The notes under the pieces are model-generated. The model was not told where the DNA came from. It saw nothing but the letters and a program-made list of their open reading frames with translations, and made no database searches. A DNA stretch of 64,000 nucleotides from positions 1 to 64,000 of the forward strand of contig NZ_SOQX01000009.1 in the NCBI RefSeq assembly GCF_004366735.1, given 5' to 3'. Below, in pieces: positions 54,955 to 64,000 of this stretch. How positions within the stretch are numbered: the stretch's first letter is position 1; every line of letters begins with the position of its first letter. The DNA is from Thiohalophilus thiocyanatoxydans (GTDB lineage Bacteria; Pseudomonadota; Gammaproteobacteria; UBA6429; Thiohalophilaceae). The position numbers were made by a program, and so were the translations under genes.

Positions 54955-55962
54955 TCAGCTTCGTATAACATTCTTCGGCTGGTAGTCGCACCGCTCACAA
55001 TCCATTCTCTGATATACCGTATCGTCGATAATCTGGTTACAGATATGCTCGCGACGGGTATCGCGGATATGCGGTTTGATCCAGGAGCTGATATAGAGCT
55101 TGCCGCGGGATTCGTGCAGCCTGTCCTTGTAGTCGGGTTCGACGGTGCGTTCGATATACTCCTCGTCCAGTTGCACGCCCGGCAGATGTTCACATAATTT
55201 GCCAAGCATCCAGTCAAGAGTGATGTCGGACAGCCCCTTCTCCTTGTAGCTGCCGCCGATGTTCGAGTGCACGCCGGCAAACCAGCGCTGTTCCACGACT
55301 TGCTCCTCGCTGAGGTTGCTGGCTTGCCACAGTGTCGGGCTGAAGGAGCGCCGCTTCTCGTCGACGGCCACGGCATGAAAGGCGTGTTTCACGTGCGGCG
55401 AGAGTTTTGTGTCGTGGAATTTGTACATCCAGGCGGTGGCCCAGTTGAGTGATTTCAACGGAATCCCCAGCGCGCCAACTGTGTCCCAGACGCCGAGAAA
55501 GTGCACGTCCCGGTCAACATGACTGTAGCGTTCGCGGTAGGCTTCGATTTTTGCCGGGTCGGTATCGTGGCTGCGATACATCGCATACGTCTTTTCGATC
55601 TTGCTGATGTACTTTTTGCGCAGAATGCCGAATTGACCAATCAGTCCTGCCAGGCTGCGAGCGGTATAGGCGCCGCGGCTGAAGCCGAACAACACCAGTC
55701 TGTCGCCGGGCTGGTAGTGTTCCACGACGAATCGATAGGCCTCCTGGACGTTCTTGAACAGACCGTGACCGAAGGCTCCGCCGGTGATCCTGTCCAGCCA
55801 GTTGCGGGTGCCGACTCCTTCGTCATACCAGGTCAGTTGTTCCGGGGTACTGAGGATGAGGCGCGCCATTTTGGCCACGTTGCTGGGGGAGGTGACACCG
55901 TCGTCTTTTTGGTCGGCGGTATTCCAGGTACCGTCAGTACAGATAAAGAGTATTTTGCCCAT
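54955..55962 (-). CDS. DUF2235-family alpha/beta hydrolase
   Basis: A 335-residue protein with the DUF2235 N-terminus KILFICTDGTWN and the serine nucleophile elbow GFSRGAYTAR (S95). The catalytic Asp is probably in VHFLGVWDTVGALGIP and the His in DEGVG...VHSNIGG or a later histidine. Some members are Tle1 phospholipase effectors of type VI secretion; others are stand-alone. No T6SS or immunity-like gene is adjacent here, so an effector role is not supported. Monocistronic. Confidence 0.85.
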   Translation of the reverse strand: MGKILFICTDGTWNTADQKDDGVTSPSNVAKMARLILSTPEQLTWYDEGVGTRNWLDRITGGAFGHGLFKNVQEAYRFVVEHYQPGDRLVLFGFSRGAYTARSLAGLIGQFGILRKKYISKIEKTYAMYRSHDTDPAKIEAYRERYSHVDRDVHFLGVWDTVGALGIPLKSLNWATAWMYKFHDTKLSPHVKHAFHAVAVDEKRRSFSPTLWQASNLSEEQVVEQRWFAGVHSNIGGSYKEKGLSDITLDWMLGKLCEHLPGVQLDEEYIERTVEPDYKDRLHESRGKLYISSWIKPHIRDTRREHICNQIIDDTVYQRMDCERCDYQPKNVIRS

Positions 55963-56755: not shown

Positions 56756-59700
56756 TTAACTGGAATATATCAGGGTAAGTTTATTTGTTTCTGAGTCAGA
56801 GAGTAATTTCCAAATATCGCCAGCGGGAAGAGGTTTGCTAAACAGATAACCCTGGATGTGATCACAGCCATGGGAGCGCAAAAAATCAAGCTGTGCTGTA
56901 TCTTCAACACCTTCCGCTATGACCTCCATGCCAAGACTGTGCCCAAGACTGATGATGGCCTGGGCAATGATAGCATCGCCAGGATCGTTCATTATATCCT
57001 GAACAAAACTTTTATCAATCTTGAGTTGGTTGACGGGTAATCGTTTGACATAGGCTAATGATGAGTAACCTGTACCAAAATCATCAATGGAAAGATGTAC
57101 ACCCAGGCTATTTATCCGGTTTAGGGTATTGATAATATTTTCCTGGTCTTCCATTAGCATACTTTCAGTTATTTCAAGTTCAAGAAGGCCTGGTTCAAAA
57201 CCGGTCTCTGTTAGAATATTTTCGAGTTTTTCTACCAACTGCGATTGTTTTAATTCTCTGACGGAAAGATTGATTGAGAGTTTAATAGGATCTATTCCAG
57301 TGGCCTGCCATTTTTTCAGTTGCAGAGTGGCGGTTCGTGTAACCCAACCCCCGATGCGAAGAATTTGACCACTGTTTTCTGCTATTGGTATGAACTCAAG
57401 TGGCGATATCATGCCGAAATCTGGATGGTTCCAGCGTAACAACGCTTCCAGTCCTGATATTTTACCCGTGATCAGAGAGACCTGTGGTTGATAATAAATA
57501 TCGAGCTGCTGGTTATCGATCGCAAAGCGAATATCTTTTTCAAGTTTGAGTGTACGAGCAGTAATGGTTTGGAGTTCAGTGCTATAAAAAAAGTAATTAT
57601 TCCCTCCAAGGCGCTTCGCATGATACATGGCAATATCAGCATACCTGGAAAGGGTGTCAAAATCATCACCATCATCCGGGTATATGGTGATGCCTGTTGA
57701 CAGGGTTGCTGTCATTTCATAGTTGTTGATGTTGTATGGCTTGGAAATTTCCGTTTGAATCTTTTCTGCGACATGTGCAGAGCCATCGGCGTTAGTATCA
57801 GGCAATAATATAATAAACTCATCGCCGCCTTGGCGAGAAATCGTGTCCTGGTTACGGAGTAAGGATGACAGGCGTTGTGCTACTTCTGTTAGAAGAAGAT
57901 CGCCAACCTTGTGACCAAGGCTGTCATTGATATTCTTGAAATTATCGAGATCGCAATAGAGTATCGCTATTTTCTTATTCTGACGTTGTGCCTGGGAGAT
58001 GGCGTACTCGACATGTTCACTGAGTAACACCCTGTTTGGGAGCTTGGTCAAGGGATCGTAGTGAGCGAGCCACTGTATATGTTGTTCATATTCCTTGCGT
58101 TGAGTTATGTCCTCAAAAATCCCAATATAAACAGTAGCATTATATTCCGGGTCATGGGTTTGTATAATACTGAGCCATTCAGGGTAAATCGAACCGTCCT
58201 TACGTCGGTTCCATATTTCGCCTTCCCAATATCCCTGAGAAGAGATTGTTTCCCACATGTTATGATAGAAATCAGATTTATGTTGACCGGAGGAAAGAAC
58301 GTTTGGAGTTATTCCAAGCACCTCCTCTTCAGGATAGCCAGTGATACTGGTGAATGCCTTGTTAACCATGATTATATTGTTGTTTTTATCGGTGATAACA
58401 ATTCCTTCTCGGCTGTTCTCAAAAACATGCGCGGAAAGTCTGACTTTTGATTCTTGCGCCTTTCTCTCGGTGACGTCGGTAAGAAATCCATGCCAAAGAA
58501 CAGAGCCGTCGGATTGTTTATCCGGAGTAGCGTTAGCATTGAACCAGCGTATGTTTCCGTTTTTATCTATTGAGCGCCATTCGTTTCTCCAGATACTCAG
58601 TTCACTGGCAGAGGTTTTTATAGATATATTTATCCTGGCCAAATCGTCAGGATGAATTGATTCAAAAACAGGGGATGCGTCCAGGTGAACAGATTCAGGA
58701 TCTATTCCGAGGAGCGATGAAATCGCATCGCTCACATACGGCATTCTATGGCTGCCATCGGGAAATAACTGGTACTCGTAAATCATTCCAGGAAGGCGGC
58801 TGGCAATATTTTTAAGACGTTTCTCTGATTGTTTGACGTCTTCAACCACATTTAACAACGCGCGCCGTGATCGTTTCGCAATTTGTAGTTGTTGTTGCAG
58901 CTGATCATTGGCCTTAACGGCATCGCGCTCAGTATTTTTTATATGTGTAATATCAGTCAAGCTTATAACGCTGCCGATAATATCATTGTAAGAATCAATA
59001 TCTCGTATGTAACTTGAACCGACTAGCAGGTCGAAATGCCTTGTTTTACCTCGCAAAGACAGTTCAAGTTGGCCACTTACAGTGTTATCAAGTATGTCTT
59101 TGAGCTGATACAAGTTGTCGTTTTTATCTATAAGCTGAAATATGGCATCGAATGACAGGCCGGTTGGTTCGGTTTCACTCAGACGTCTGGAGGTCGCATT
59201 GGATCTAAGGATTATTCCTGAAGAATCGCATACAACAATTGCCTCGGTGACTTGTTCAAGAATCGTGCGCGTAAGCTTCTCGTCAGCTGCGATTGCCTTG
59301 TTACGTTTCTGTTCGCTCAGATCAGTAACAATAATGCTAAGTGTGTAGTCGCTGTTTTCGTTGCTGTTCTTGCCTATAGTAAGATATGCCGGAATTGGAC
59401 TTCCCGTATTGCTCCGCAATGAGTATTCATGACGAACAGTGCCACTATAATAATCTGCCATGTTACGCAGTGTGTTATCTAAATAATCACGTTCATCAGG
59501 AAAAATCCAATTGTCGATAGCCGTGCCTATAATTTTATGTAAGGGAGATTGTAGTATCTTGGCTATATATTGGTTGGCATAAAGGATAATATTCTGATCA
59601 GAAATAATCAGGGCGCCTTCACCCATTTCTTCAATAAGCTTGCGATATATACTTTCTTCATCCAATAATGAAACAACATATGATTGCTCCTCTCGGGTTT

Positions 59701-59827
59701 GTAATATGGCATCAACCTCACCTTTTCGTATGGAGTTGATTAGTTGTTCATATTCGGCAAGTTTATCCCGTAACCGCTGATTCTCAGTTAAGAGTGATGC
59801 CTTGGTATGCTTTTTTGATGAGGACAT
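56756..59827 (-). CDS. Multi-PAS GGDEF-EAL protein of the kai operon
   Basis: A 1023-residue cytoplasmic protein. The N-terminus is a coiled coil with LRDKLAEYEQLINSIRKGEVDAIL, a module common in sensors encoded near kaiC. Four PAS domains follow (about 65-170, 180-290, 330-450, 465-580). The GGDEF domain is intact (RQGGDEF at 665-671) and so is the EAL domain (LEALLRW near 790, ITESMLM, DDFGTGYSSLAYVKR, KIDKSFV, AEGVED). It could both make and break c-di-GMP. The start lies 19 bases after the kaiB stop, so it should be the last gene of the operon. I infer it as the output of the KaiBC system. Confidence 0.9.
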   Translation of the reverse strand: MSSSKKHTKASLLTENQRLRDKLAEYEQLINSIRKGEVDAILQTREEQSYVVSLLDEESIYRKLIEEMGEGALIISDQNIILYANQYIAKILQSPLHKIIGTAIDNWIFPDERDYLDNTLRNMADYYSGTVRHEYSLRSNTGSPIPAYLTIGKNSNENSDYTLSIIVTDLSEQKRNKAIAADEKLTRTILEQVTEAIVVCDSSGIILRSNATSRRLSETEPTGLSFDAIFQLIDKNDNLYQLKDILDNTVSGQLELSLRGKTRHFDLLVGSSYIRDIDSYNDIIGSVISLTDITHIKNTERDAVKANDQLQQQLQIAKRSRRALLNVVEDVKQSEKRLKNIASRLPGMIYEYQLFPDGSHRMPYVSDAISSLLGIDPESVHLDASPVFESIHPDDLARINISIKTSASELSIWRNEWRSIDKNGNIRWFNANATPDKQSDGSVLWHGFLTDVTERKAQESKVRLSAHVFENSREGIVITDKNNNIIMVNKAFTSITGYPEEEVLGITPNVLSSGQHKSDFYHNMWETISSQGYWEGEIWNRRKDGSIYPEWLSIIQTHDPEYNATVYIGIFEDITQRKEYEQHIQWLAHYDPLTKLPNRVLLSEHVEYAISQAQRQNKKIAILYCDLDNFKNINDSLGHKVGDLLLTEVAQRLSSLLRNQDTISRQGGDEFIILLPDTNADGSAHVAEKIQTEISKPYNINNYEMTATLSTGITIYPDDGDDFDTLSRYADIAMYHAKRLGGNNYFFYSTELQTITARTLKLEKDIRFAIDNQQLDIYYQPQVSLITGKISGLEALLRWNHPDFGMISPLEFIPIAENSGQILRIGGWVTRTATLQLKKWQATGIDPIKLSINLSVRELKQSQLVEKLENILTETGFEPGLLELEITESMLMEDQENIINTLNRINSLGVHLSIDDFGTGYSSLAYVKRLPVNQLKIDKSFVQDIMNDPGDAIIAQAIISLGHSLGMEVIAEGVEDTAQLDFLRSHGCDHIQGYLFSKPLPAGDIWKLLSDSETNKLTLIYSS

Positions 59828-59845
59828 ATGTGTTAAGAGCGTAAG

Positions 59846-60175
59846 CTATCGATGTTTGATATCCAGCCCGACAAGGACCTTGTCAGTGTCGGAGAGATCG
59901 CCGATGATACGCCTGATGGGTTCGGGAACCTGTTTGATCAGCGTTGGAACTGCTATGATTTGATCTCCCTCGGCAAGTTGTGGTTGCTGATAGAGATCAA
60001 TGACTTCCAGTGCATAACGCTCGTTGAGATATTCCTCACAGATCTCCTTGAGATTCTTTATCGCCAGAAGGGATTTCGGAGTCTGACCCGCGACATACAG
60101 GCGAAGCAAATAATGATCTGGTTGCATGGAATTCGGGGTGGCCGTATTGTCTGATGAATGATTCATGATCTGCAT
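59846..60175 (-). CDS. kaiB: KaiB circadian-clock-type protein
   Basis: A thioredoxin-like KaiB of up to 109 residues: [75 protein letters not shown]. The conserved features are LYVAGxTPxSxxAixNL and the [23 protein letters not shown] motif. It has an N-terminal extension of about 20 residues before the core. The start may be ATG 60175 or 60166. It sits 17 bases after the kaiC stop. No kaiA is present, as in most non-cyanobacterial systems. Confidence 0.97.
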
Positions 60176-60191
60176 TCTCGATGTCAGTAAG

Positions 60192-61619
60192 TTACGTACT
60201 TGAGGCGTCTGAGTTGATGATCACTCCCTGGTCGGTTATGTGATAGTCATGTATTGCATTGGAATGGCTCATTCCGCGTGATTTGATGATGGTTACCGTA
60301 TGAGACCGTGATTTTTCGAGCTCGGTATTTCTCAGTAGTAGCCAGGTATCCATTAACGACGAGATACCGATTTCGGTCTGTTCCTCATTTTCTCCACCCT
60401 GGGTAAGGCTGTTGCAAAAAGCGGTGATGCCCTCCGTCTTCAGATAGTCCAGCAATCGCGCGAGCATGACTTTGATAGCGCCGGTGTCGCCTCCGGTGAT
60501 AAAACTGTTTAAGGGATCAATGACCACGGTTTGAGGTTCGAATTCCCTGACAACTTCCAGTATGCCAAGGAGATGAGCCTCAAGGCCGGCAGCTGTCGGT
60601 CGTACGGCATGAATCTGGAGTAACCCCTTGTCCAACCAGTGCCCAAGATCGATACCTATGGAGGCCATATTGCGGCAAATCTGTGCGGGGGATTCTTCAT
60701 AGGCGAAATACAGGACCTTCTCCCCACGTTTTACCGAAACCTGAGCCAAATGTGCCGCGAAGCTTGATTTTCCAGATCCAGCTGTACCGGAGGCGAGGAT
60801 ACTGCTGCCACGATAGTAACCCTTGCCACCAAGCATCTCGTCCAGTCCCGTGATACCGGTGGTAATGCGCTCTTCCAGGGCTGCGTGGAGAAGCGTCAGC
60901 GAGGTTACCGGCAGGATTGAAATGCCCTGTTTACCGATCAGGAAGGGGTACTCATTGGTCCCGTGACTAGAGCCCCGGTATTTGACCACCCGCAGGCGAC
61001 GGGAGGAAAGCTGGTTCTGAACCCGGTGGTCAAGAGCAATAACACAATCCGAGACATATTCCTCGATTCCGTGTCGTGTCAGTGTGTGTTCGCCGGCTTC
61101 GGCCGTCACAATCGCTGTGACATCTTTTTGTTTCAGCCAGCTGAACAGGCGCCGGAGTTCGGACCGCAGACGTCTGGGATCCGGTAGCTGGGCAAACAGT
61201 ACATCAATGGTATCCAGAACCACGCGCTTGGCACCAATTTTGTCGATGGCCGCGCCCAGCCGGATAAATAACCCTTCCAGGTCATAATCGCCGCCTTGTT
61301 CGAGCTGTGTGCCCTGCAGATCCACGTGGTCGATGTAAAGCTGTTTATTATTTATAAGCTCCGGCAAGTCATAACCCAGAGAACTGACATTGACCGCCAG
61401 GTCCTCTCCAACCTCCTCAAACGAGATAAATACGCCCGGTTCGCCGCGCTCCAGCGCTCCTTTTACCAGGAATTGCATTCCCAGCAGGGTTTTTCCGCAG
61501 CCGGCATTCCCGCAAACCAGAGTCGGTCTGTTGCTTGGCAGGCCACCGTCGGTTATTTCGTCCAGGCCTGTAATGCCTGTGGGGATTTTTTTCAGATGCA
61601 GATAGTGTGTCGATTGCAT
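60192..61619 (-). CDS. kaiC: KaiC circadian-clock-type ATPase
   Basis: A 475-residue double RecA-like ATPase. CI has Walker A GNAGCGKT at 37-44 and catalytic E68-E69 (FISFEEV). CII has GTAGSGKS at 278-285 and E308-E309 (YFAYEES). The linker-CII start repeats [12 protein letters not shown]. The CII phosphorylation pair of cyanobacterial KaiC (Ser431-Thr432) aligns with S420-S421 in GISSLMDTW, so phosphorylation may be on two serines, as in KaiC2-like proteins. It is shorter than cyanobacterial KaiC (519) mainly at the C-terminus, where KaiA would bind. It starts 21 bases after the sensor gene. Confidence 0.96.
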
Positions 61620-61639
61620 AATATAACTCGTTGTTGGTT

Positions 61640-63997
61640 TTAAATGTTGCTTTCCTGATCGTCAAGGTTGGTGTAACGGGGCGCTTGCTGATGCTTTTGC
61701 AACAGGGCATTGACTTCCCGTTTGAGTTCTATGATCCGTTCCTCCCGACCAATCGTAGCTGCAAACCAGCGGTTAAGTTCCTCGACCTGCTCTTGCAATT
61801 GTGCTTCCCTGGCTTTTTGTTCGGTGAGGTCCATAATCGTGCCAGTCATACGAATGGGTTTTCTCTCGTTATCACGGCTGATGATACCCCGTATGAGGGT
61901 TGGCACATAATGTCCGTCCTTGTGTTGAAAGCGACATTCAACCGATTCGTGATCGTGCATGGGTTGCCGGGTACGATAAAGGGCTTGTTCAACCTGTGAG
62001 ATATCCTCTGGATGAGCCAGGCGGCGCCACAGTTCGGAATTAACAGATAATTCATTAACCTCATAGCCAAGCATGTACCACCACTGGGGTGAATAGTAGA
62101 GCTCGTTGTTGACAAAATCCCAGTCCCAGGGAGCATCAGTGGAGCCCTGGATGACAAGATCCAGGCGCTGCTGAGTCTTTTGTCGTTCTGTTTCGCGATC
62201 TATGTTCTCCAGTGCAAAGGTGATATCCAGGGCCATCTCCTGCAACAGGTCCTGAGTGGTTGCATCAAAGCTGTTGGCCTGCTCCGAATAGAGGTTGAAA
62301 TTGCCATACAGTTTGCCATTGCGCCATACCGGCAGGCTGGCGGAGGCGGCAAATCCAAAGGCTTCTGCCTGTTCATGCCAGGGTGCTGAAATTGGTTCAT
62401 GTAAAAAATCCTGGCACCAGTAAGGGCGGTTCTCACGCAGCGCGGTTGCGGTTGGGCCCTGGCCACCAGGGCTTTGCGGATCGAGCGAGAGCAAAATTTC
62501 ATCCAGGTACTCGGTCCCCTCACCCGCGCTGGCGATCGGCGTGAGTGTTCGGGTATGCTGGTTAAGGGTGCCGATCCAGGCCATTTTATAGCCACCATAC
62601 TCAACGGCATTATGGCAAATCCGTTCCAGCAGATCGCTCTCTTGCTGAATTCGAACAATTGCCTGATTGGTCTGGCTCAGCGTGGCATAAAGTCTGGATA
62701 GATGTGCAACCTGAGCGGCAGCCTTCTCACGCTCGGTTATGTCATGGGCAATACCCAGGACCCCGACAAGTTCCCCATGCTTGTCGAACATGGGCGTTTT
62801 GGTGGTTTCAAAAATACCCTGGTAACCATTGCTTGAAAAGGTGAGCTGTTCCTCGTTTTGAAGTGGCTTGTTGGAAGCTAGGGCTTTTCGATCATGTTCA
62901 CGGAAAAAATCAGCCAATTGCCGATTAACGAAGTCATAATCTGTTTTACCAATTATGTCTGCCTCGCTGGCTCCGAAGAACTGCTCAAACATAGGGTTGC
63001 ATCGGAGGTAGATACCGTCAGTGTCTTTGAGCCAGATCAGGTCCGGAATAGTCTGGAACAGGGTTTGTAAACGCAGTTGACTGGCTTCGAGCTCTTCCTG
63101 CGCGGCGCGTATGTCAGTAATGTCTTCACCAGATGAGAGGAAGCCGGTAATATTGCCCTTTTCGTCATACAATGTTGAATTGTGCCAGGCGATGAGCCGT
63201 TCTTCACCGTTATGGCTTACAACTCTGTTTTCTGCATATTCAGTGGTTTCAAGATCACCGTGCATCAGTTTGTTGAATACGCCTTTGGCATATACATGTA
63301 CCGACTCGGGCAGGCAATGCTCGAACCAGTCCTTGCCGAGTAACTCATCTTCGCTGTAAGCGAGAACTTTCTGTGCCTTGCGGTTGAGCATGCGGATGCG
63401 GCCGCCAGTGTCGAGCGAAACCAGCATGGTGCCAGCTATGTCGAGATAGTGTTGAGCCTGATGATGAGCCGTCTCAAGCGCGAGCTCAATCTTTTTACGG
63501 TCGTCAATGTCCTGGACCATACCGATAAAGTAGTCGACTTCACCATCCGCGCCACGAATAGCCTTAACCTCAAGATAGCCATAAATGATGCTGCCATCCT
63601 TTCGGATATAGCGTTTGTCCAGTTTATATCCATCACTTTCATTGCGTATAACCTTATCGAATTCAATATGCTCCTGGTCCAGATCATCCGGGAGAGTCAT
63701 CTCCTCCCAGGTCAATTTTTCAAGTTCAACCCGGCTATAACCCAGAATCTCACAGAGTCGATCATTGAAACGCAACAAACGCCTGGATTGAGGTGACGCG
63801 GTACAAATACCAACAAACGGCATATCGTGAAAAAGCTGTAGAAGATTATCGGCTTTGCTACGTTCGACCTGTAAAGTCAAATTGTGTAGCCAGTACTGCT
63901 GACGCCATACCATAAACAGACTGATGCCGATGGTCAGCAAAGCGAACAGACTGACCAGGGTGACCCAGTAGATCAGCTCATAAAGGGGTTGCATCAC
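61640..63997 (-). CDS. Membrane multi-PAS/GAF sensor without kinase domain, first visible gene of the kai operon (possibly cut by the window edge)
   Basis: The 785 visible residues start with a TM segment (about 10-30), then a short coiled coil, three PAS domains (to about 410), a GAF domain (YATLSQTNQAIVRIQQESDLLERICHNAVEYGGYKMAWIG... about 430-600) and a fourth PAS (about 610-735). It ends in EEERIIELKREVNALL-like tail (EERIIELKREVNALLQKHQQAPRY), a coiled coil often found on PAS proteins near kaiC. There is no histidine kinase, GGDEF or other output domain. The ATG at 63997 lies 3 bases from the edge, so extra N-terminal sequence is possible. It should pass a signal to KaiC or another partner by contact. 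Confidence 0.85.
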   Translation of the reverse strand: MMQPLYELIYWVTLVSLFALLTIGISLFMVWRQQYWLHNLTLQVERSKADNLLQLFHDMPFVGICTASPQSRRLLRFNDRLCEILGYSRVELEKLTWEEMTLPDDLDQEHIEFDKVIRNESDGYKLDKRYIRKDGSIIYGYLEVKAIRGADGEVDYFIGMVQDIDDRKKIELALETAHHQAQHYLDIAGTMLVSLDTGGRIRMLNRKAQKVLAYSEDELLGKDWFEHCLPESVHVYAKGVFNKLMHGDLETTEYAENRVVSHNGEERLIAWHNSTLYDEKGNITGFLSSGEDITDIRAAQEELEASQLRLQTLFQTIPDLIWLKDTDGIYLRCNPMFEQFFGASEADIIGKTDYDFVNRQLADFFREHDRKALASNKPLQNEEQLTFSSNGYQGIFETTKTPMFDKHGELVGVLGIAHDITEREKAAAQVAHLSRLYATLSQTNQAIVRIQQESDLLERICHNAVEYGGYKMAWIGTLNQHTRTLTPIASAGEGTEYLDEILLSLDPQSPGGQGPTATALRENRPYWCQDFLHEPISAPWHEQAEAFGFAASASLPVWRNGKLYGNFNLYSEQANSFDATTQDLLQEMALDITFALENIDRETERQKTQQRLDLVIQGSTDAPWDWDFVNNELYYSPQWWYMLGYEVNELSVNSELWRRLAHPEDISQVEQALYRTRQPMHDHESVECRFQHKDGHYVPTLIRGIISRDNERKPIRMTGTIMDLTEQKAREAQLQEQVEELNRWFAATIGREERIIELKREVNALLQKHQQAPRYTNLDDQESNI

Positions 63998-64000
63998 TTC

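Follow-up and report, generated by a model that had tools for sequence, protein, structure and literature searches.

The kaiC and kaiB genes of Thiohalophilus thiocyanatoxydans are followed by a gene for a GGDEF-EAL protein that starts with a short module, EVDAL, which is also common to the histidine kinases behind KaiC-KaiB elsewhere. The KaiC protein lacks its C-terminal tail. We think that these genes probably encode a KaiA-less KaiC2-KaiB switch that gates the turnover of c-di-GMP, with a sensor and a latch-like KaiC.

All four genes lie on the minus strand of the window (the 64,000 nucleotides that we analyzed). As originally predicted, the ORF coordinates and the Pfam domains give the leftward transcription order sensor, KaiC, KaiB, PAS-GGDEF-EAL protein. 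The intergenic gaps are 20 bases (sensor-KaiC), 16 bases (KaiC-KaiB), and 18 bases (KaiB-GGDEF-EAL), each one base shorter than first counted (21, 17, and 19), and the spacing is operon-like. Separate promoters and terminators between the genes had been named as evidence against a single unit. A consensus scan of the three gaps found no terminator-like sites and one candidate promoter, a 9/12 match across the KaiC-KaiB gap (60187-60158). Shuffles of the region averaged 11.5 (sd 3.7) promoter-like matches, and the region itself has 18. So kaiB might have its own promoter, and because of the match in the KaiC-KaiB gap, co-transcription of the cassette is left uncertain.

The output protein and its EVDAL module

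The output protein has 1023 amino acids (56756..59827, minus strand). Pfam matches and intact motifs bear out the prediction of a complete PAS-GGDEF-EAL protein: the GGDEF domain (57599..58066, minus strand; E = 1.4e-50) retains its motif and the RxxD I-site, and the EAL domain (56831..57535, minus strand; E = 1.8e-75) retains its signature residues, so that by motif alignment this is a predicted dual GGDEF-EAL enzyme. All six of the EAL versions that we compared have intact EAL motifs, and three of the six have an intact GGDEF motif. (L085, with PAS only and neither a GGDEF nor an EAL domain, was dropped from this count.) Since the GGDEF motif and the I-site are intact here, net synthesis of c-di-GMP is possible. 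And since the host genome has 47 GGDEF matches, any change that this protein makes to c-di-GMP might be a local one.

EVDAL occupies about 60 residues at the N-terminus (59609..59797, minus strand; E = 3.0e-22). In module-first surveys, which scored up to 16 (class) or up to 15 (phylum) first-look candidates per genome, it was found in 7 of 369 genomes of the class (8 matches, each with E < 1e-8) and in 10 of 398 genomes of the phylum (10 matches with E ≤ 1e-6), counting this genome in both. kaiB adjoins all 17 of the distinct matches with E ≤ 1e-6; the alignment used came from loci found via KaiC, and may be tuned to Kai-linked versions. (In G101, which is among the 17, the neighbor is a 56-residue piece of KaiB.) Three weak matches, with E = 4e-4 to 8e-4, were left out (G356, G185, and G296); by eye, there is no Kai gene around the one in G356. 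Because the GGDEF-EAL protein carries a module that lies beside kaiB in 17/17 matches, it belongs with KaiC-KaiB, and the view of KaiC, KaiB, and this protein as one set holds up.

Among 46 named genomes that were picked by their KaiC, EVDAL lies directly downstream at 41 loci; at three of the other five, no more than 361 bases lie between the KaiC match and the end of the locus. Altogether these genomes have 46 EVDAL matches, in 43 genomes, with five of the matches away from the picked KaiC (two in G407 and one each in G422, G440, and G447). The domains behind EVDAL vary: HisKA, HWE kinase, or GGDEF-EAL, with HD-GYP in a neighboring open frame. KaiBC can also do without the module, as 15 of the 21 class genomes with KaiC at E ≤ 1e-50 have no EVDAL at E ≤ 1e-6.

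The coupling of KaiC-KaiB with such an output protein recurs elsewhere and is not chance. Nor is the pairing with GGDEF-EAL unique to this genome: an EVDAL-PAS-GGDEF-EAL protein is also present in G504, where the GGDEF motif is altered rather than intact as it is here, and in Rhodoferax sp. OV413. G475 has an HD-GYP frame at its Kai locus instead of GGDEF-EAL, and the output frame of G512 (262 amino acids, PAS only) ends near the contig end. Conservation of all four genes across many genomes, which had been hoped for, came down to one other genome: the distant G504 has the same four-gene order. On a quick tree of KaiC (no bootstrap), the GGDEF-EAL label clusters weakly, with 3 changes for 4 rows and 26 of 500 shuffles equally low.

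In a structural model of residues 1-185, a helix (9-34) and a hairpin (40-53) make up EVDAL, with modest confidence, and are followed by PAS (mean pLDDT 86.4, but 62-71 over residues 31-60). A structure search with these residues gave nothing specific to EVDAL: the best 50 of 1529 hits (E ≤ 10) are all PAS proteins.

Kai loci of this kind have a published precedent (De Luca et al. 2011). Gene contexts of the form kaiC-kaiB-(histidine kinase or GGDEF/EAL) are described in the excerpt of PMC3164672, which also places the RtaNt domain on the histidine kinases of a kaiB-less group. Section 17 of that paper mentions no N-terminal module common to both outputs of this group, and neither a sensor in front of kaiC nor a KaiC without its tail. 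The excerpts of PMC5520375, PMC6627678, PMC10132064, and PMC8899612 hold nothing decisive on Kai output, and in the literature that we searched, chiefly open-access, we found no account of an EVDAL module common to both output types. With EVDAL on a GGDEF-EAL protein, a tail-less KaiC, and its four-gene order again in G504, this locus is less ordinary than the published layout.

A KaiC2-type protein without its tail

KaiC has 475 amino acids (60192..61619, minus strand). PF06745 matches it in two stretches (E = 3e-108), and it scores 651.7 bits against NF006799 (cut-off 408) and 324 against TIGR02655 (below the cut-off of 546.25). By alignment, it has the features of the KaiC2 type: two ATPase domains, catalytic EE pairs, and an SS phosphosite pair (ISSLMD), with S420-S421 encoded at 60357..60362 (minus strand). 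But only 9 residues follow position 466 (the end of the CII core) before the stop codon (60192..60221, minus strand), so that the A-loop and the coiled coil are missing. Both are present in the closest relatives seen (58-63% identical), which are Rhodoferax sp. OV413 (L039) and, from another class, G504, G475, and G512 (family f207), with 98-108 residues after position 466. Among the 61 KaiC2-type loci measured (by frame-based HMM searches), 55 have at least 60 residues after this position and 6 have fewer.

The nearest structures are from Rhodobacter (Cereibacter) sphaeroides (8db3, 8dba, and 8fwi), whose KaiBC hourglass resembles this system: its KaiC, the closest that has been solved, is 52.9% identical and has the SS phosphosites, and the kinase behind its kaiC-kaiB also starts with EVDAL (E = 4e-16). 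But its output is an HWE kinase instead of a GGDEF-EAL protein, and its KaiC has the A-loop and coiled coil, with 107 residues after position 466 instead of 9. According to the excerpt of PMC10076222, R. sphaeroides KaiC without the coil phosphorylates but hardly dephosphorylates. Because the A-loop and coiled coil are missing here, this KaiC should stay phosphorylated by default, a prediction that leans on a relative at about 53% identity. So we doubt that this is a true hourglass timer, which would sense night or a drop in energy and set c-di-GMP by time of day. Such a timer, a special case that overlaps with our main proposal, would fit a KaiC2 with the SS pair, with KaiB but not KaiA, whose nearest solved structures are R. 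sphaeroides-type proteins. However, the missing coil is the part that speeds dephosphorylation in R. sphaeroides (PMC10076222, same excerpt), and the A-loop is missing as well, and we rate the timer as the least probable of the alternatives.

KaiB has 109 amino acids (59846..60175, minus strand). It matches PF07689 (E = 1.6e-29; 101.8 bits, cut-off 27) and NF006798 (113, cut-off 110), and falls below the cut-off of TIGR02654 (109.3 versus 145.3). KaiA was correctly predicted to be absent: it has no match in this genome (0/1), and among 14 controls, only Synechococcus elongatus matched.

In Legionella pneumophila, kaiB, kaiC, and a PAS/GGDEF/EAL gene reportedly lie in one unit (Loza-Correa 2014). 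So we also considered a Legionella-like module for stress fitness, in which KaiC would serve stress or redox adaptation, KaiB would be mainly thioredoxin-like, and c-di-GMP would not be controlled by the phospho-state. The reported gene content is similar, and the missing A-loop and coil speak against a full timer. However, this KaiB is distant from Lpp1115 of Legionella (57.1 bits) and nearest to the KaiB of 8fwj (100.9 bits), so we rejected Legionella as the nearest model for KaiB. Furthermore, entry 8fwj lists both a KaiC chain and a KaiB chain, so pairs of this type form a complex. A stress-fitness module of this kind seems unlikely to us.

The upstream sensor and the origin of the cassette

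The sensor gene (61640..64000 within the window, minus strand) does not start at the GTG at 63997, as was proposed; its open frame extends about 1.1 kb past the end of the window, to contig position 65098 (ATG) or 65176 (GTG). From N- to C-terminus, the full protein has hydrophobic segments (beyond the window, judged by eye), a weak dCache-like domain (E = 4.9e-10; 39.8 bits, below the Pfam cut-off of 45), PAS domains, GAF, a last PAS, and a C-terminal tail. A Pfam search of the full-length protein at E = 0.01 shows neither a kinase domain nor GGDEF, EAL, or HD, so the description of a sensor without a kinase stands.

The sensor had been taken as an addition to the Legionella layout. It is not unique: G504 has a related sensor directly upstream of kaiC (dCache-PAS-GAF, ending in HD-GYP; 25% identity over 913 columns, E = 2e-71). 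The pairing of a sensor with kaiBC elsewhere rests on this one genome. The N-terminal 360 residues of the sensor have no match in 39 relatives; of 74 genomes in the family of G504, 10 have a match, which is strong in two. We also considered the C-terminal tail (GREERIIELKREVN type; 61664..61807, minus strand) as a KaiC-specific mark, and rejected it. Across 185 genomes of the class, the tail has matches at 5 places in 4 genomes, this one included; in the other three, we saw no Kai gene nearby (short loci, by eye), and the pattern is not in other called proteins of L006-L053 (whose gene calls include some wrong frames).

The KaiBC-c-di-GMP cassette was probably acquired. It is conceivable, but improbable, that what remains is a relic of horizontal transfer, with the 3' part of the output gene having recombined with a GGDEF-EAL gene, so that the enzyme is now independent of KaiBC. 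The GGDEF-EAL gene (GC 0.42) has a GC3 of 0.40, outside the range of the 36 other window ORFs of over 200 amino acids (0.58-0.85), while KaiC (0.58), KaiB (0.54), and the sensor (0.54) are at or just under its lower edge. KaiC (E ≤ 1e-60) is found in 0 of 35 same-family genomes of other genera, and the KaiC of the lone same-genus genome is 41% identical. However, composition is no clean mark, as a GC3 of 0.51 is also seen in a gene that lies some 6.4 kb past the sensor's start. The short gaps are kept, the four-gene order is found again in G504, and EVDAL is retained both here and in other Kai-linked c-di-GMP proteins. These alternatives are not mutually exclusive, and our estimates for them need not sum to one.

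A proposed route from KaiBC to c-di-GMP

We propose that KaiC would autophosphorylate on the SS pair, and that KaiB would bind KaiC and alter its state. The GGDEF-EAL protein may dock on KaiC-KaiB via EVDAL, filling the slot that most relatives give to a histidine kinase. On balance it would probably act as a phosphodiesterase, at a level that tracks the Kai state. We presume that the dCache-PAS-GAF sensor in the membrane is co-expressed; it could relay a signal, from outside or from the redox state, to either the Kai complex or the enzyme. KaiC itself may be a hexamer that is phosphorylated by default, acting as a latch or as an energy or stress switch and not as a ticking clock.

More tentatively, KaiC2-KaiB systems without KaiA might in general use EVDAL for docking, as SasA has its unrelated KaiB-like domain, with either kinases or c-di-GMP phosphodiesterases attached to it in evolution. 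Here, with a phospho-latch KaiC, the Kai state and a membrane sensor would then set c-di-GMP directly, with no phosphorelay. EVDAL could also persist by shared ancestry of the 5' part of the gene, with no role in docking.

A module that lies beside kaiB, and that stands in front of kinases in some proteins and of c-di-GMP enzymes in others, offers a concrete way into how KaiBC systems without KaiA signal to the rest of the cell, and makes one short segment the candidate for binding to the Kai proteins. The tail-less KaiC is a natural counterpart, and more, of the R. sphaeroides truncation which, in the excerpt cited above, nearly blocks dephosphorylation, and it bears on what the coil and the A-loop are for.

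Gene order and identity of the Kai proteins

Four leftward genes stand at the end of the window, as originally predicted, and Pfam confirms each one: a GGDEF-EAL gene (56756–59827), kaiB (59846–60175), kaiC (60192–61619), and a sensor gene (from 61640, cut at the window end). The gaps between them, which had been put at 19, 17, and 21 bases, measure 18 (GGDEF-EAL/KaiB), 16 (KaiB/KaiC), and 20 (KaiC/sensor). The sensor gene is not wholly inside the window: followed along the contig, the frame stays open up to 65098 (with an ATG start) or 65176 (with GTG). A consensus scan found no terminator-like site within the three gaps, and it found a promoter-like match (9/12) across the KaiC-KaiB gap. The gene at 54955–55962 encodes a phospholipase catalytic domain of the Tle1-like kind (PF09994, E = 8.8e-84).

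The window KaiC scores above the cut-off of the NCBIfam KaiC model NF006799 (651.7 bits vs. 408) and below that of TIGR02655 (324 vs. 546.25 bits). No KaiA was found in the host genome, which agrees with the original prediction. A kai operon with a PAS/GGDEF/EAL gene is known from Legionella. The solved structures nearest to the window KaiC are 8db3, 8dba, and 8fwi (E = 1.3e-165 to 2.3e-164), and the nearest solved KaiB is that of 8fwj. According to PMC10076222, these KaiC structures are from R. sphaeroides, and the SS phosphosite pair, which the window KaiC has, is of the KaiC2 type.

The EVDAL module and its output proteins

The first ~60 residues of the window GGDEF-EAL protein (the EVDAL module) match the start of histidine kinases that lie behind KaiC-KaiB in other phyla. 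In the AlphaFold model, this region is a helix (residues 9–34) and a hairpin (40–53; low pLDDT, ~62–71), followed by PAS. In 46 named genomes, which were picked by KaiC similarity and are biased towards KaiC (all module candidates were scored), there were 46 module matches spread over 43 genomes, and the module was directly downstream on the same strand at 41 loci. Of the five other loci, L025, L043, and L046 break off no more than 361 bases from the KaiC match; KaiC is split over frames at L052; and at L053, KaiB is present and the module was not found.

Because of this bias, we ran separate module-first surveys of 369 genomes from the host's class and 398 from its phylum. At most 15–16 first-look candidates were scored per genome, and both surveys may have missed more distant copies. 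The class survey gave 8 matches (E < 1e-8) in 7 of 369 genomes, and all 8 adjoin kaiB; in G101, the open KaiB is only a 56-residue piece, and no KaiC was seen on the short contig L122. (Three weaker matches, with E = 4e-4 to 8e-4, were left out.) The phylum survey gave 10 matches (E ≤ 1e-6) in 10 of 398 genomes; the window aside, 9 of 9 lie directly after kaiC-kaiB. Counting the window once, since it is in both surveys, 17 of 17 distinct module loci are beside kaiB. Across the class genomes, 6 have the module and KaiC (E ≤ 1e-50), 1 has only the module, 15 have only KaiC, and 347 have neither (Fisher p = 1e-7). The module-only genome, G077, has a KaiC frame without its middle part. This frame (L121 9228–10031) is 267 aa, without a counterpart of residues ~110–415, and KaiB and an EVDAL-GGDEF-EAL gene are still behind it.

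Given the 15 KaiC-only genomes, KaiC proteins from other lineages are mostly without the module. Several module-less KaiC genes in the class sample have GGDEF or EAL genes near them (L086, L089–L094, and L097), as does G001, from the host's genus (L096). At individual loci, such genes may be chance neighbours; the 23 genomes in which GGDEF matches were counted have 0–51 of them, and the host has 47. At L096 8665–14250, genes for a PAS-GGDEF and a GGDEF-EAL protein lie near those of a second, non-orthologous KaiC (41% identity) and KaiB, and the EVDAL module was not found there. At L091, L092, and L093, where KaiC is of a different lineage, kaiC is immediately preceded by a GGDEF-EAL gene in the same orientation.

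What follows the module varies. By profile queries, the 41 downstream loci encode a kinase (33), a GGDEF-EAL protein (1, L039 from Rhodoferax sp. OV413), or neither (7). Of these seven, Pfam identifies L022 and L035 as kinases, L016 and L017 run into the contig end, and L013, L037, and L042 have PAS only. The module is also present in the R. sphaeroides HWE kinase. Module-bearing c-di-GMP proteins are found beside kaiB in the window, at L039, and at L077 (G101, two open frames), L121 (G077), L122 (G364), and L133 (G504); the module-PAS-GAF frame at L132 (G475) has HD-GYP behind it in a frame of its own. The EAL signature residues are intact in all six of the module-bearing c-di-GMP proteins compared (a seventh entry, L085, was dropped as it has no EAL domain), while the GGDEF motif is intact in three (window, L039, and L077) and altered in three (L121, L122, and L133). 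This pattern favours hydrolysis as their common output. But the window protein has both motifs, as well as an RxxD I-site. The host has 47 GGDEF matches (E ≤ 1e-10) in 2.9 Mb, so any enzyme linked to Kai would be one among many in the cell.

A KaiC without its tail, and the origin of the locus

The window KaiC has just 9 residues beyond position 466, whereas its nearest relatives, L132, L133, and L039, have 107, 107, and 98, including DVYVGPEGVLTGSARL (or a near variant) and a coiled coil. KaiB starts 16 bases past the KaiC stop, which leaves no space for a lost frame. Among 64 KaiC2-type loci, 61 were measured (L046, L052, and L079 are cut or broken), and 6 have fewer than 60 residues beyond position 466: the window (9), L011 (34), L034 (26), L038 (11), L043 (15), and L053 (15). 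By structure-sequence comparison, the window KaiC ends at about R. sphaeroides residue 470 or cyanobacterial residue 486. In PMC10076222, R. sphaeroides KaiC truncated at residue 490 shows near-normal phosphorylation and almost no dephosphorylation, and cyanobacterial KaiC without its A-loop is mentioned as hyperphosphorylated; PMC8538168 describes A-loop mutants at 487–495 of cyanobacterial KaiC. We infer that the window KaiC would form a hexamer whose default state is phosphorylated. Its lack of a tail speaks against a simple hourglass of the R. sphaeroides type.

In a quick tree of 75 KaiC proteins (without bootstrap), the window KaiC groups with L039, L132, L133, L134, and L136 (SH-aLRT 97) on a long end branch (0.71). 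It is 63% identical to KaiC from G475 and G512 and 61% identical to that of G504, all from one family of another class, in which KaiC (E ≤ 1e-100) is found in 4 of 74 genomes. Among 58 sampled relatives, 3 have KaiC at E ≤ 1e-60, the host included, and the same-genus KaiC is 41% identical. The GC3 of the GGDEF-EAL gene (0.40) is clearly outside the range of 36 window ORFs of over 200 aa (0.58–0.85; simple caller, positions 1–55000); KaiC (0.58) lies on its lower edge, KaiB (0.54) and the sensor (0.54) fall slightly below it, and a neighbouring gene beyond the sensor is at 0.51. The host probably acquired the locus.

The upstream sensor and the proposed role of the locus

The full sensor has hydrophobic N-terminal segments (by eye), a dCache-like region below the Pfam cut-off, PAS domains, a GAF domain, a last PAS domain, and a charged tail. 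The prediction that it lacks a kinase domain holds for the full-length protein: a domain search at E = 0.01 found no kinase, GGDEF, EAL, or HD domain. G504 encodes, 150 bases ahead of kaiC and in the same orientation, a 1174-aa dCache-PAS-GAF protein that shares 25% identity with the window sensor (913 columns, E = 2e-71) but, unlike it, ends in HD-GYP. With this sensor beside kaiC, the four-gene order does recur in another genome, but once only. Either the window sensor lost its output domain or the G504 sensor gained it. The sensor's N-terminal domain was found only in the host among 40 genomes and in 10 of 74 genomes of the G504 family (2 strong; G504's own copy is the one beside kaiC). The charged C-terminal tail occurs in 4 of 185 class genomes and may be a mark of split sensors. 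At L127 1060–3129 (G006), a short protein with a similar charged tail lies just before a gene that looks kinase-like by eye.

According to PMC3164672, nearly every non-cyanobacterial kaiC-kaiB pair has a kinase or GGDEF/EAL protein behind it, and SasA has a KaiB-like domain; other papers describe a kaiC-B-PAS/HK operon in R. palustris and R. sphaeroides (PMC4794148) and alteration of the S. elongatus clock by c-di-GMP levels (PMC13001216). The literature that we searched held no description of a module common to different output types, of a tail-less KaiC in a KaiC-KaiB-output setting, or of the sensor parallel in G504. We propose that the state of the Kai proteins gates a c-di-GMP enzyme: the EVDAL module would dock the GGDEF-EAL enzyme on the Kai proteins, and the membrane sensor would be an extra input.
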